Shown one piece after another: positions 11,699 to 37,740 of a DNA stretch of 41,496 nucleotides (positions are counted from its first letter, which is position 1; the number at the start of each line of letters is the position of its first letter). Below the pieces are notes generated by a model, which did no database searches, was not told where the DNA came from, and was given only the letters and a program-made list of their open reading frames with translations. Both the position numbers and the translations under genes were made by a program. This DNA is from Alphaproteobacteria bacterium (GTDB taxonomy: Bacteria; Pseudomonadota; Alphaproteobacteria; Elsterales; Elsteraceae), in assembly GCA_013298565.1 (NCBI GenBank), contig JAAFIC010000020.1, positions 1 to 41,496 of the forward strand, in the 5' to 3' direction.

Positions 11699-11769
11699 TT
11701 ATCTAGAACCTTTATCCTCAATACCGCTATGCTGATGTTTAGAGCAAATCCCGAGCAGGTGATACACTT
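11667..11769. promoter_or_regulatory. Three AGTGTATCA sites around the phnM start, candidate PhnF operators
   Basis: AGTGTATCA lies at 11667-11675 inside the first codons of phnM, and AAGTGTATCA at 11688-11697 across its start codon. The exact reverse complement TGATACACTT lies at 11760-11769 in the phnM/phnF gap. The outer pair forms a perfect inverted decamer. A HutC-type GntR regulator is encoded next door, so autoregulation and phnM repression are plausible; this is inference. Confidence 0.4.
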
Positions 11770-11845
11770 GGTGCGACGCATTTGCTAAACAAAACAAAAG
11801 TCTAAAGTGTTAATCGTGAACCGATGTGAACGAGAAACACTCTAG
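11741..11845 (-). repeat. RIME-like mosaic palindromic element, copy 1 (inverted orientation)
   Basis: This is the reverse complement of the two-hairpin unit seen at 12991 and 36970. Hairpin B (11743-11786) has the perfect arms AGCAAAT/ATTTGCT. The linker reads AAACAAAACAAAAG, and hairpin A (11802-11845) has CTAAAGTGTT/AACACTCTAG arms. The centre of hairpin B differs from the other copies and carries one TGATACACTT site. The element fills most of the phnM-phnF divergent promoter region. Confidence 0.75.
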
Positions 11846-12610: not shown

Positions 12611-12648
12611 TAGAGCGTCTTGCGTAAAGGTTGACGCAAGACGCTCTA
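12611..12648. repeat. P1 palindrome, copy 1
   Basis: TAGAGCGTCTTGCG and CGCAAGACGCTCTA are perfect 14-bp arms around the loop TAAAGGTTGA. All 38 bases are identical to 22030-22067. It is followed by GTTTTACTTT and may end phnF transcription. Confidence 0.9.
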
Positions 12649-12714
12649 GTTTTACTTTAGCCCTCGCCGGGCGGGCGCATCCGCGCCCTTGGCCGCCGCC
12701 TCAATGGCGGCTTA

Positions 12715-12788
12715 TAGAGCCGCGCCAGAGTTAAGGCGCGCGGCTCTAGGCTTATAGAGCCGCGCCAGAGTTAAGGCGCGCGGCTCTA
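12715..12788. repeat. Two tandem P2 palindromes
   Basis: Two identical 34-bp units, 12715-12748 and 12755-12788, are spaced by GGCTTA. Each has TAGAGCCGCGC arms around CAGAGTTAAGGC. A third copy with one change lies at 22077-22110. Confidence 0.9.
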
Positions 12789-12990
12789 AACATCGAGCAT
12801 GGCATCTTACGAAAGACTGAAGTTCCGTACTCTCGTGTTTGCGGATGGGCAATTTATTAAAACCTAATTTATTCTGCCATCCTAATGATTTTTTTAATAA
12901 AATCGAAACATATTATCGTCTTAAATTGTGTTTGGCTTTTGGCGCTTCTGAAAAGCTCAGAATACCGTTATCGAGCGCAAGTTGCTCTTC

Positions 12991-13096
12991 AGAGCATTTT
13001 CCGTTCGCGATAGCTCGCGGTAAATGCTCTAAACTGTTGTTTTGTTAAGCAAAGGCTAGTCGCGGGTGATCCGACCCGCTCGGGATTTGCTCTCTA
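12991..13096 (+). repeat. RIME-like mosaic palindromic element, copy 2
   Basis: Hairpin A (12991-13030) has AGAGCATTT/AAATGCTCT arms with inner CGCGATAGCTCGCG. The linker is AAACTGTTGTTTTGTTA. Hairpin B (13048-13091) has AGCAAA/TTTGCT outer arms and the perfect inner stem GCGGGT/ACCCGC. The outer ends AGAGC and GCTCT bound the unit. It lies in the arsC leader, ending about 24 bp before its ATG. Confidence 0.8.
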
Positions 13097-17141: not shown

Positions 17142-17242
17142 TTAGAGCATGATCCGCGCGCGCGCGCTCAGGTATCATGCTCTAAACTTTTATTGTACCG
17201 CATGATTCACGCCTATGGCGAAGCCACCTTCGGCGATCATAC
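17142..17242 (+). repeat. RIME-like mosaic palindromic element, copy 3 (ATGAT-arm variant)
   Basis: Hairpin A (17142-17185) has the perfect 12-bp arms TTAGAGCATGAT/ATCATGCTCTAA around a CGCGCGCGCG loop. The linker is ACTTTTATTGTACC. Hairpin B (17200-17242) has GCATGAT/ATCATAC arms with inner CGCC/GGCG and GCC/GGC. It has the same plan as the other copies, but both hairpins use the CATGAT arm. The right edge contains the stop codon of the PAP2 gene. Confidence 0.75.
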
Positions 17243-22029: not shown

Positions 22030-22067
22030 TAGAGCGTCTTGCGTAAAGGTTGACGCAAGACGCTCTA
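22030..22067. repeat. P1 palindrome, copy 2
   Basis: The 38 bases are identical to 12611-12648, with 14-bp perfect arms. It is followed after GTTTTATCT by a P2 copy. It lies between the converging lrp and greA genes. Confidence 0.9.
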
Positions 22068-22076
22068 GTTTTATCT

Positions 22077-22110
22077 TAGAGCCGCGCCAGAGTGAAGGCG
22101 CGCGGCTCTA
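22077..22110. repeat. P2 palindrome, copy 3, containing the greA stop codon
   Basis: TAGAGCCGCGCCAGAGTGAA plus GGCGCGCGGCTCTA, one base different from the copies at 12715 and 12755. Its last three bases (CTA, 22108-22110) are the TAG stop codon of greA on the minus strand. Confidence 0.88.
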
Positions 22111-35121: not shown

Positions 35122-36948
35122 CTATTTCCCGCGTTTTGCTTGCGTCGCGGCGGCTTTTTCCGCATCCCACCACCAGCGGTCGAAGCTCTCCCGTTGTAGG
35201 GTTTCGAGACCGGGACGGCTGTAATAGTCCCAATGGGCATAGCGCGTCGTGCGTCCGTGGAACTGCGGAATAACGTAATGGCCCCAGCGCAGCAGCCGGT
35301 CCAGCACGTTAACGCGCGTTACCAGTGCCTCGCGCGTGGGGGCATTGATGACCTGCTCGATCAGGGTATCAATCGCAGGGTCTTTGATTCCTGGCAGATT
35401 GCGCCCGCCCGGCGTGTCGGCGCTGACCGAGCCAAAAAACTCACGCTGTTCATTTCCAGGGCTGCTTGACTGCGGGAAAATGCCGACGACCATATCGAAA
35501 TCATAGGTTTCGAGGCGCTTCTGATACTGGCTGACGTCGAGCAAGCGAAGTTTGGCGGTTACGCCCAACTGTTCCAGGTTTTTGATGAACGGGAGCGTGC
35601 TGCGCTCGAAGGCTTGGTTATCAATGAGGATCTCGAAGCTCATCGGCTGGCCCTTGGCATCGGTCAGCTTCGTGTCTTTCACCGTCCAACCCGCCTCCCG
35701 CAGCCGCTTGAGGGCCGTGCGAAGGTTTTCGCGAAGAGTGCCACTGCCATCGGTTTTGGGCGGCAGATACTCAGTGCTGAAAACTTCCTCCGGCACTTTA
35801 CCCTTGAACGGCGCCAGGAGCGCCAGTTCTTCCGGGCTGGGCAGACCGCGCGCGCGCAACTCCGAATTATCGAAATAGCTAACCGTGCGGATTAACTGCC
35901 CGTCCGAGAGCGTTTTATTCGTCCACTCGAAGTCATAGGCATAGGCCAACGCCGCCCGCACTTTCGGATCGGCAAATTGCGCGCGGCGGGTGTTGAAGAC
36001 ATAGCCTTGCATTCCGCGCGGGCTGCTATCGCCAATTTCAGTACGCTGGATCAAGCCTTGGCGCACGGGGGGCTTATCGTACGCAGTGGCCCAGCGGGAG
36101 GAGGATTGTTCTTGCCGCAGAGTAATATCGCCCGCCATCAAGGCTTCAAGCGCAACCCCATCATCGCGGTAATAGTCGAAACGCAATAGATCGAAATTAT
36201 GACGCCCACGCTGCGGCGCAAGGTCTTTCCCCCAGTAATTAGGATTGCGCGCGTATACGATACTGCGGTTGGCATCGACGCTTTTTACCTGATACGGGCC
36301 GGAGCCTAAAGGCGCATCGAGACTGGTTTGATCGAAAGGCCGGGTTGCATAATAGGCGGCGGAAAACACGGGGAAATCGCCAATAATCAGCGGGAGTTCT
36401 TGATTATTACCATCTTTGAAGCGGAAGGTAATCGTGCGCGCATCGGCGGTTTCCACCCCGGTTACATCGTTGAAATAGCTCCGGTAGTTGGGCGCGCCCT
36501 TCTCCCTCAGCACCGTATAGCTGAAGGCGACATCTTGGGCCGTTACGGGGGTTCCATCATGGAACTTGGCGTCGGCGCGCAGTGTGAAGGTGATCGACGT
36601 GCGGTCTTTCGCAAGCTCCATGGTCTCGGCCAGCAGGCCGTAGCGGCTGAACGGCTCATCAGAGGAGGCAATGGTGAGGGTGTCGAACAGTAGGCCAACA
36701 CTCGCGGCAGGGGTACCCTTCAGAATAAAGCCATTGAGACTATCGAACCCGCCTAAAACGGACAGCCGAACCTCGCCGCCCTTCGGGGCGTTCGGGTTAA
36801 CATAGTCGAAAGAGGCGAAGTCCGGTTTATACTTAGGCGCGCCATAGAGGGCCATGCCCTGCACCGGGTCCGCGTTGGCCGAAGATGGCACCCACGCATA
36901 ACTCAGCAGCCCGGCTGCGACCATTATAGCCCATCGCGTCCGCGTCAT
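35122..36948 (-). CDS. ABC transporter periplasmic binding protein, family 5 (YejA/oligopeptide-like)
   Basis: A protein of about 608 residues. A Sec signal peptide covers about 1-27 (basic start, hydrophobic core, cleavage after SANA before DPVQG). The mature protein has the family 5 pattern of the YejA type: MALYGAPKYKPDFASFDYVNPNAP (here shortened), AKFHDGTPVTAQDVAFSY, LGSGPYQVKSVDANRSIVY, and the ALAYAYDFEWTNKTL hinge. It binds peptides or peptide-like compounds. The ATG at 36946-36948 has AGGAG 5 bases upstream; the GTG just before it is too close. No permease or ATPase gene is nearby. Its Shine-Dalgarno region pairs exactly with 8 bases of the small-RNA candidate at 14851-14978. Confidence 0.9.
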   Translation of the reverse strand: MTRTRWAIMVAAGLLSYAWVPSSANADPVQGMALYGAPKYKPDFASFDYVNPNAPKGGEVRLSVLGGFDSLNGFILKGTPAASVGLLFDTLTIASSDEPFSRYGLLAETMELAKDRTSITFTLRADAKFHDGTPVTAQDVAFSYTVLREKGAPNYRSYFNDVTGVETADARTITFRFKDGNNQELPLIIGDFPVFSAAYYATRPFDQTSLDAPLGSGPYQVKSVDANRSIVYARNPNYWGKDLAPQRGRHNFDLLRFDYYRDDGVALEALMAGDITLRQEQSSSRWATAYDKPPVRQGLIQRTEIGDSSPRGMQGYVFNTRRAQFADPKVRAALAYAYDFEWTNKTLSDGQLIRTVSYFDNSELRARGLPSPEELALLAPFKGKVPEEVFSTEYLPPKTDGSGTLRENLRTALKRLREAGWTVKDTKLTDAKGQPMSFEILIDNQAFERSTLPFIKNLEQLGVTAKLRLLDVSQYQKRLETYDFDMVVGIFPQSSSPGNEQREFFGSVSADTPGGRNLPGIKDPAIDTLIEQVINAPTREALVTRVNVLDRLLRWGHYVIPQFHGRTTRYAHWDYYSRPGLETLQRESFDRWWWDAEKAAATQAKRGK

Positions 36949-36969
36949 CACGTCTCCTGCCGGTTCATA

Positions 36970-37062
36970 TTAGAGCGTTTTTCGTTCACGATAAAGGCTC
37001 TAATCTTTTGTTTTGTTTAGCAAAGGCTAGTCGCGGGTGATTCCACTCGCTCGGGATTTGCT
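36970..37062 (+). repeat. RIME-like mosaic palindromic element, copy 4
   Basis: Hairpin A (36970-37003) has TTAGAGC/GCTCTAA ends with the inner GTTTTTCGTTCACG segment. The linker is TCTTTTGTTTTGTTT. Hairpin B (37019-37062) has AGCAAA/TTTGCT ends and GCGGGT/ACTCGC. The 37008-37062 part closely matches 13037-13091. It lies over the tetR 3' end. Confidence 0.82.
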
Positions 37063-37740
37063 GTAATGCTGGTGCGAGGGTTCGGGTGCAAGGCCGCGCA
37101 TCAGGGTATCCAACAGCGTTTCAATCATCAGCTCTGGCGGGGCGGGGGGGTGATCGCTCGATTTAATCAGCAGCGTCGCCAGCCCGTGAACGCTGGCCCA
37201 CAGGGTTGCCGTAATCGCGGCAGCATCCCCCTGGCGCAGTTGCCCCGATGCCTGACAGCGGGCGACGCCTTTTTCCAGACTGCCATAGGCTTGCTCGCAC
37301 AGGTTATCGCAGCAATCCTCTTGCTTCTTACGGCATACGTCGCGCTTGGCTTCGGGCGGCAGTGTCATAAACACCACGCGATAATGATCGGGATAGGATA
37401 GGCCGAAGCGGATATAGGCTTCCAGCCCCCGGCGCAGCGCGCACAGCGGATCGGTGACAGGACACATGACCGACTGAAGGTTTTGCAGCAAAATCCCAAA
37501 GGTTTCCTGAACCAGATGGAAAACCAACTCTTCCTTATTGCGGAAATAGAGATAGAGGGTTGTCGGCGTCACGTTCAGCTTGGCGGCGATATTTCGCATG
37601 GAAGTGCGATCGTAGCCCTCGGTAAGCATCAACTCCCGCGCGGCGGCCAGAATCTCGCTCCGGCGATCTTGGCTCCGCTCAGTCGTCGCACGAACGGAGT
37701 CTGCGACGGTCGTGACAATCGAGATCGGAACAGCCGTCAT
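37027..37740 (-). CDS. TetR-family regulator with a cysteine-rich ligand domain
   Basis: A 237-residue TetR protein. The start is the ATG at 37738-37740, because AGGAGGG lies 6 bases upstream; the open frame continues 16 codons further without a signal. The helix-turn-helix is at about 30-75 (RSEILAAARELMLTEGYDRTSMRNIAAKLNVTPTTLYLYFRN, in family order). The C-terminal domain holds seven cysteines: VMC, PLC, DVC, a CC pair, NLC and ARC. Several fall in one stretch, DVCRKKQEDCCDNLC, which suggests metal or thiol sensing. The last 11 residues (SKSRASGITRD) and the stop are encoded by a RIME-like element, so the original C-terminus has been replaced or extended. The target is unknown. Confidence 0.85.
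   Translation of the reverse strand: MTAVPISIVTTVADSVRATTERSQDRRSEILAAARELMLTEGYDRTSMRNIAAKLNVTPTTLYLYFRNKEELVFHLVQETFGILLQNLQSVMCPVTDPLCALRRGLEAYIRFGLSYPDHYRVVFMTLPPEAKRDVCRKKQEDCCDNLCEQAYGSLEKGVARCQASGQLRQGDAAAITATLWASVHGLATLLIKSSDHPPAPPELMIETLLDTLMRGLAPEPSHQHYSKSRASGITRD

Follow-up and report, generated by a model that had tools for sequence, protein, structure and literature searches.

CIR repeats, known from Caulobacter, Brucella and other alphaproteobacteria, are composed of two arms and a linker with TA ends (Chen and Shapiro 2003, as described in PMC2229807). According to section 7 of that 2007 review, no CIR had been found within a gene, and further information on how they move was required. 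The same source presents RUP of S. pneumoniae as an IS630-type MITE, believed to be moved by IS630-Spn1, and the Rickettsia palindromic element as a palindromic repeat that encodes protein, in frame inside genes. Stops and tails supplied by MITEs are already known from the accounts of BOX, ERIC and QMITE. BOX of S. pneumoniae encodes the stop of a gene in 36 cases, where the evidence for truncation is described as not strong (PMC3049150); an ERIC/RU-1 element at the 3' end of the amidase gene ECA3499 adds a C-terminal tail, the normal stop being lost (PMC2759123), and QMITE2 adds a C-terminal tail at the 3' end of enhC (PMC5896051). Among titles and abstract openings, taken mostly from outside the subscription journals, there was no report of the element family presented here or of a MITE end that restores a stop.

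The window, that is, the whole stretch of 41,496 nucleotides analyzed here, belongs to a draft genome of the genus Elstera (3.02 Mb in 126 contigs). It was compared with two congeners, G001 and G002, the latter corresponding to Elstera litoralis as judged by locus L064.

A repeat at the 3' end of a TetR-family gene

The gene encoding a TetR-family regulator (domains TetR_N and TetR_C_33) occupies positions 37027..37740 of the minus strand when read from MTAVPIS. In the initial annotation a hairpin at 37019-37062 was said to encode the last 11 residues, SKSRASGITRD, and the TAG stop at 37029-37027. Re-reading of the codons proved the coordinates, the codons and the stop to be correct, as the minus strand from 37062 to 37030 is AGC AAA TCC CGA GCG AGT GGA ATC ACC CGC GAC and the present TAG lies within the hairpin. 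The hairpin is real, but the whole element is larger and extends from TA to TA over 36971-37065. The codon immediately before those of the hairpin, TAC (Tyr, 37065-37063), is also part of the element terminus, so that reading continues for 12 codons into the element, which supplies 12 residues, not 11. The same DNA had been reported at 13048-13091, where a copy of the repeat was indeed present, but with an identity of 41/44 instead of a complete one. Two points had been missed, namely that a canonical TAG end would keep a stop and that the tail results from a difference of a single base.

The TetR C-terminus was aligned with its orthologues from G002 (88% identical) and G001 (84%), both free of the element; the matches end at residues 227 and 226, respectively, of the 236 in the query, and similarity is lost at the element start. 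The G002 protein terminates as ...LAPEPSLPH* and that of G001 as ...LAPDHPQLSH*, stopping at the element start or one residue beyond, and neither carries the C-terminal residues of the window protein, which reads ...LAPEPSHQH and then the element-encoded YSKSRASGITRD*. At the DNA level, similarity to both congeners disappears at the element start and is back again in the next gene downstream, which encodes an SBP_bac_5 solute-binding protein (35122..36951, minus strand) and starts about 20 nt beyond the element. Since the orthologues without the element end where the element begins, the element entered the end of the TetR gene, as had been proposed. The suggestion that it replaced the gene end did not hold, because the host-encoded portion is as long as the G002 orthologue and the Pfam domains, which reach residue 213 of 237, end ahead of the element-encoded tail. 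These results indicate that the repeat supplies the end of the predicted TetR protein, with a tail that is presumably translated. In both congeners the stop of the TetR gene is TGA.

Structure, distribution and candidate mover of the element

We class the element as a MITE with two hairpins, flanked by TA: it is short, non-autonomous, bounded by inverted terminal repeats and present in many copies. It is about 105 bp long, and most of a full-length set of 50 copies (30 from the window's own genome, 15 from G001 and 5 from G002) span 93-106 bp, with ends TAGAGC...GCTCTA. The consensus comprises TA-GAGCG...CGCTC-TA, a T-rich linker and AGCAAAT-...-GCGGGTG-ATTC-CACCCGC-...-ATTTGCT-C-TA. In the TetR copy (95 bp, bounded by alignment and covariance model, with a 10-bp deletion in the loop of hairpin A), hairpin A, TAGAGC...GCTCTA, lies at 36971..37002 and hairpin B at 37019..37062, both defined by folding and by covariation over 45 copies selected from four genomes. 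Within this set the two-hairpin structure had 94.4% of cells paired, vs 34-45% in slid controls, and both sides were changed in 114 cells; the inner stem was preserved through compensating changes in the copies of G112, a genome from another family. A long-range fold, favoured by the RNAalifold consensus in model R1, was rejected, as the separate test strongly supports two hairpins. The window also contains an intergenic second copy, aligned at 12989..13094 and with TA missing at both ends, and a third copy in minus orientation at 11740..11844, delimited by alignment and the covariance model. At the gathering score, Rfam returned no family for the element and only tRNA for the window.

Several additional features were noticed. 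The 10 nt absent from the hairpin A loop of the TetR copy (36985-36996) apparently lie between GTTCAC repeats that are visible in L003 and L004. Two more families of hairpins, which likewise have TAGAGC...GCTCTA ends and of which one is arranged in tandem, occur in the window at 12611-12648 and 22030-22067, and at 12709-12788 and 22071-22110; hairpins akin to them adjoin copies of the element elsewhere, for example at L075 and L083. At 17144-17194 there is a hairpin with 71% similarity to hairpin A from the copy at 12991. At L075, some 107 bp (~2196-2302) match numerous places in G001 and G002 at about 80%, and are perhaps a common protein motif.

A 151-bp query produced 38 blast matches in the own genome at E<=0.001, implying that the repeat is not due to chance. 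The covariance model gave 61 hits there at E<=0.01, one place being counted on both strands, as well as 29 hits in G001 and 9 in G002; of six further genomes from the family, three had weak hits. In a class-wide search of 190 genomes with stricter filters, five matched at E<=1e-5, namely the own genome, G001 and three genomes of other families, among which G112 showed 20 element matches.

G112 also carries a 1,070-bp IS630-type element (L191/L193), whose 26-bp terminal inverted repeats agree at 22 of 26 positions and start with TAGAGC. Its transposase matches DDE_3 in two pieces and in two frames, that is, it is frameshifted or broken. The own genome retains a single DDE_3 fragment, in a frame of 186 residues with GCTCTA about ten bases past its stop, and no DDE_3 match was found in G001 and G002. 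The sequence TAGAGCAT is common to the element, to the IS630-type element of G112 and to the end of the own-genome remnant. The TAGAGC ends of the G112 element make an IS630-type mover likely rather than proven, and we consider that an IS630-family transposase probably moves the MITE.

Stop codons, empty sites and encoded tails

Stop placement was counted on home-made gene calls. Among the 50 full-length copies, TAG or TAA was present at 45 A-ends and 42 B-ends, and TAC in the TetR copy only; in 26 of them at least one end coincided exactly with the stop of a called gene, and in five both ends did. A 61-copy Elstera set, made of these 50 and 11 weaker copies, takes the best-scoring hits (36 of 61 in the own genome, 20 of 29 in G001 and 5 of 9 in G002); at least one end was a called stop in 33 of its copies, and in 10 of the 20 from G112. 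The flanking bases conformed to YTAR in 51 of 61 Elstera and 18 of 20 G112 copies. As a control, the non-coding YTAR sites of the same loci coincided with a stop in 51/323 cases (Elstera) and 7/102 (G112), which amounts to 54% for copies vs 16% for sites in Elstera (binomial p 6e-12) and 50% vs 7% in G112 (p 2e-7); an earlier control on 50 loci agreed, with 39 of 274 YTAR sites in stops. At no more than 30 nt from a gene 3' end, YTAR sites were stops in 51/90 cases (57%) in Elstera and 7/11 in G112. As most YTAR sites at 3' ends are stops anyway, the excess is one at gene 3' ends, and with these sites as the control a special targeting of stop codons was unnecessary. With G as its first base after TA, the element turns a stop into TAG on insertion, and the protein stays as it was.

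Six loci were compared with the congeners (L092/L104, L080, L075, L117, TetR and L128), and the filled and empty sites bear out the duplication of TA. In the own genome (L092) and in G002 (L104) the element occupies the same position between convergent genes; in G001 this locus lacks the element and the stops of the two genes overlap at a single common TA. L080 lies between two genes, which we take to be dxs and tlyA from their end and start sequences, and both congeners are without the element there, with stops at the same position. Both congeners show GAT TAA at L075, where the own copy reads GAT TA-G. For L117, a G001 copy, the own genome is empty and the stop of the right-hand gene is at the same position, the left side being unaligned. 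The four empty sites in congeners favour insertion at a pre-existing stop. At L128, also in G001, the stop of the left gene is the TAA of the element, and the convergent gene runs about 20 codons into it, the G002 orthologue ending in SPYLTA*. Separately, a G001 copy at L130 (~1412-1637) lies between a short ORF, presumably kdpF by its resemblance, and the next gene; the ORF ends at the TAG of the element and, being too short for the gene caller, is outside the counts.

Element-encoded ends were found in six genes, TetR and five others. In addition to the 12 residues of TetR, the tails comprise about 20 residues in a periplasmic binding protein (L128), 21 in a GNAT acetyltransferase (L042/L099), 17 in a branched-chain amino acid type permease (L054, from a partial element copy), 7 in an allophanate hydrolase (L180) and 17 in a glutathione S-transferase from G112 (L166). 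The matched domains finish ahead of the element in all six, and the orthologue comparison of tails covers TetR and L128. One common frame is read at L128, L099, L054 and L166, giving similar peptides. Other tail readings were discarded: L173, L175 and L176 are weak copies with unreliable far ends, the open frames at L008, L052, L057 and L059 had no Pfam match, and the ORF at L062 has only 4 codons.

Origin of the TetR tail and relation to known repeats

We propose, with a probability of roughly 80%, the following history for the TetR tail. A two-hairpin MITE resembling CIRs, with an IS630-family transposase as its probable mover, would insert at YTAR and duplicate TA, and a TAA or TAG stop would be the commonest YTAR site at gene 3' ends. 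With GAGC as the first element bases after TA, insertion at a stop would regenerate TAG and leave the protein unaltered. In TetR the element would have entered the stop codon, its target probably being CAT TAA, and a later TAG to TAC substitution in the regenerated stop would have opened the frame, which would then read 12 element codons up to the TAG within hairpin B. We infer this order of events, and the tail may well be neutral. As both congeners use TGA at this stop, a TGA to TAA change in the own lineage must be assumed.

It is unlikely that the insertion itself lengthened TetR, through a copy already ending in TAC or a target TA just before the stop, with no stop-restoring step. Such a course would agree with the lack of an intermediate strain, with the TGA, not TAA, of the congeners and with L128, where insertion directly lengthened the convergent gene; however, the TAC end is unique to the TetR copy among 50, and the host part of TetR is exactly as long as the G002 orthologue. 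The TAC at 37065-37063 could be an assembly error in the draft. A TetR gene really ending at the junction, with TAC as a misread or misassembled TAG, would be in keeping with the single-base difference, the 126-contig draft and the junction stops seen in about half of the copies examined, but the element-encoded tails of five other genes imply that tails do occur, making this explanation very improbable.

That element ends are commonly stops might also mean that the element inserts within genes, which would thereby be truncated at a premature stop, the terminal TAG. This is hardly credible, given that element-free relatives stop at the same position at the four compared regenerated-stop loci and that the domains of tailed genes finish before the element. 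Active targeting of stop codons or gene 3' ends by the transposase or a host factor would add to insertion at YTAR followed by stop restoration, not replace it. The higher stop frequencies of copies over non-coding YTAR sites in both Elstera and G112 speak for such targeting, but the 51 of 90 sites near 3' ends are stops anyway, and the loss of 5'-region and intragenic insertions would look alike; we regard it as unlikely. On the side of function, the element might be a portable 3'-end cassette, settling cost-free at stop codons by virtue of its TAG ends and then serving as a reservoir of C-terminal tails, one of its frames giving unrelated proteins a recurring peptide (ANPERV-S-ATT-L and variants) that some hosts have retained because it is useful, for instance in controlling protein turnover. 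We find this quite improbable.

In its architecture the Elstera element appears closest to CIR repeats as described in PMC2229807: it has about 110 bp, two hairpins with a linker, TA ends and an alphaproteobacterial host. The loop GANTC, conserved in CIRs, shows no such conservation in Elstera (17 of 61 copies vs about 20 expected from shuffles) and, for lack of enrichment there, was discarded as a defining motif, whereas it is common in G112 (15 of 20 copies vs 6.5 expected). Unlike CIRs as that review describes them, the Elstera element encodes protein tails. RUP is similar in its ~107 bp, TA target and ends resembling an IS630-family element, but is described as intergenic and with stops in all six frames (PMC2229807). 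BOX is another modular repeat in another host, for which the account in PMC3049150 offers no stop-restoring end as explanation; ERIC/RU-1 and QMITE2 belong to other element families in other hosts, and their cases are presented one gene at a time (PMC2759123, PMC5896051). In contrast to the Rickettsia palindromic element, that of Elstera was seen only as tails, and none of the 50 full-length copies lies wholly within a called gene. Together, these comparisons offer a testable rule for mobile repeats at gene ends, namely that the terminus would regenerate the stop that insertion destroys. Furthermore, filled and empty sites with TA duplication are now available for a CIR-like repeat, along with six genes where such a repeat became C-terminal coding sequence.
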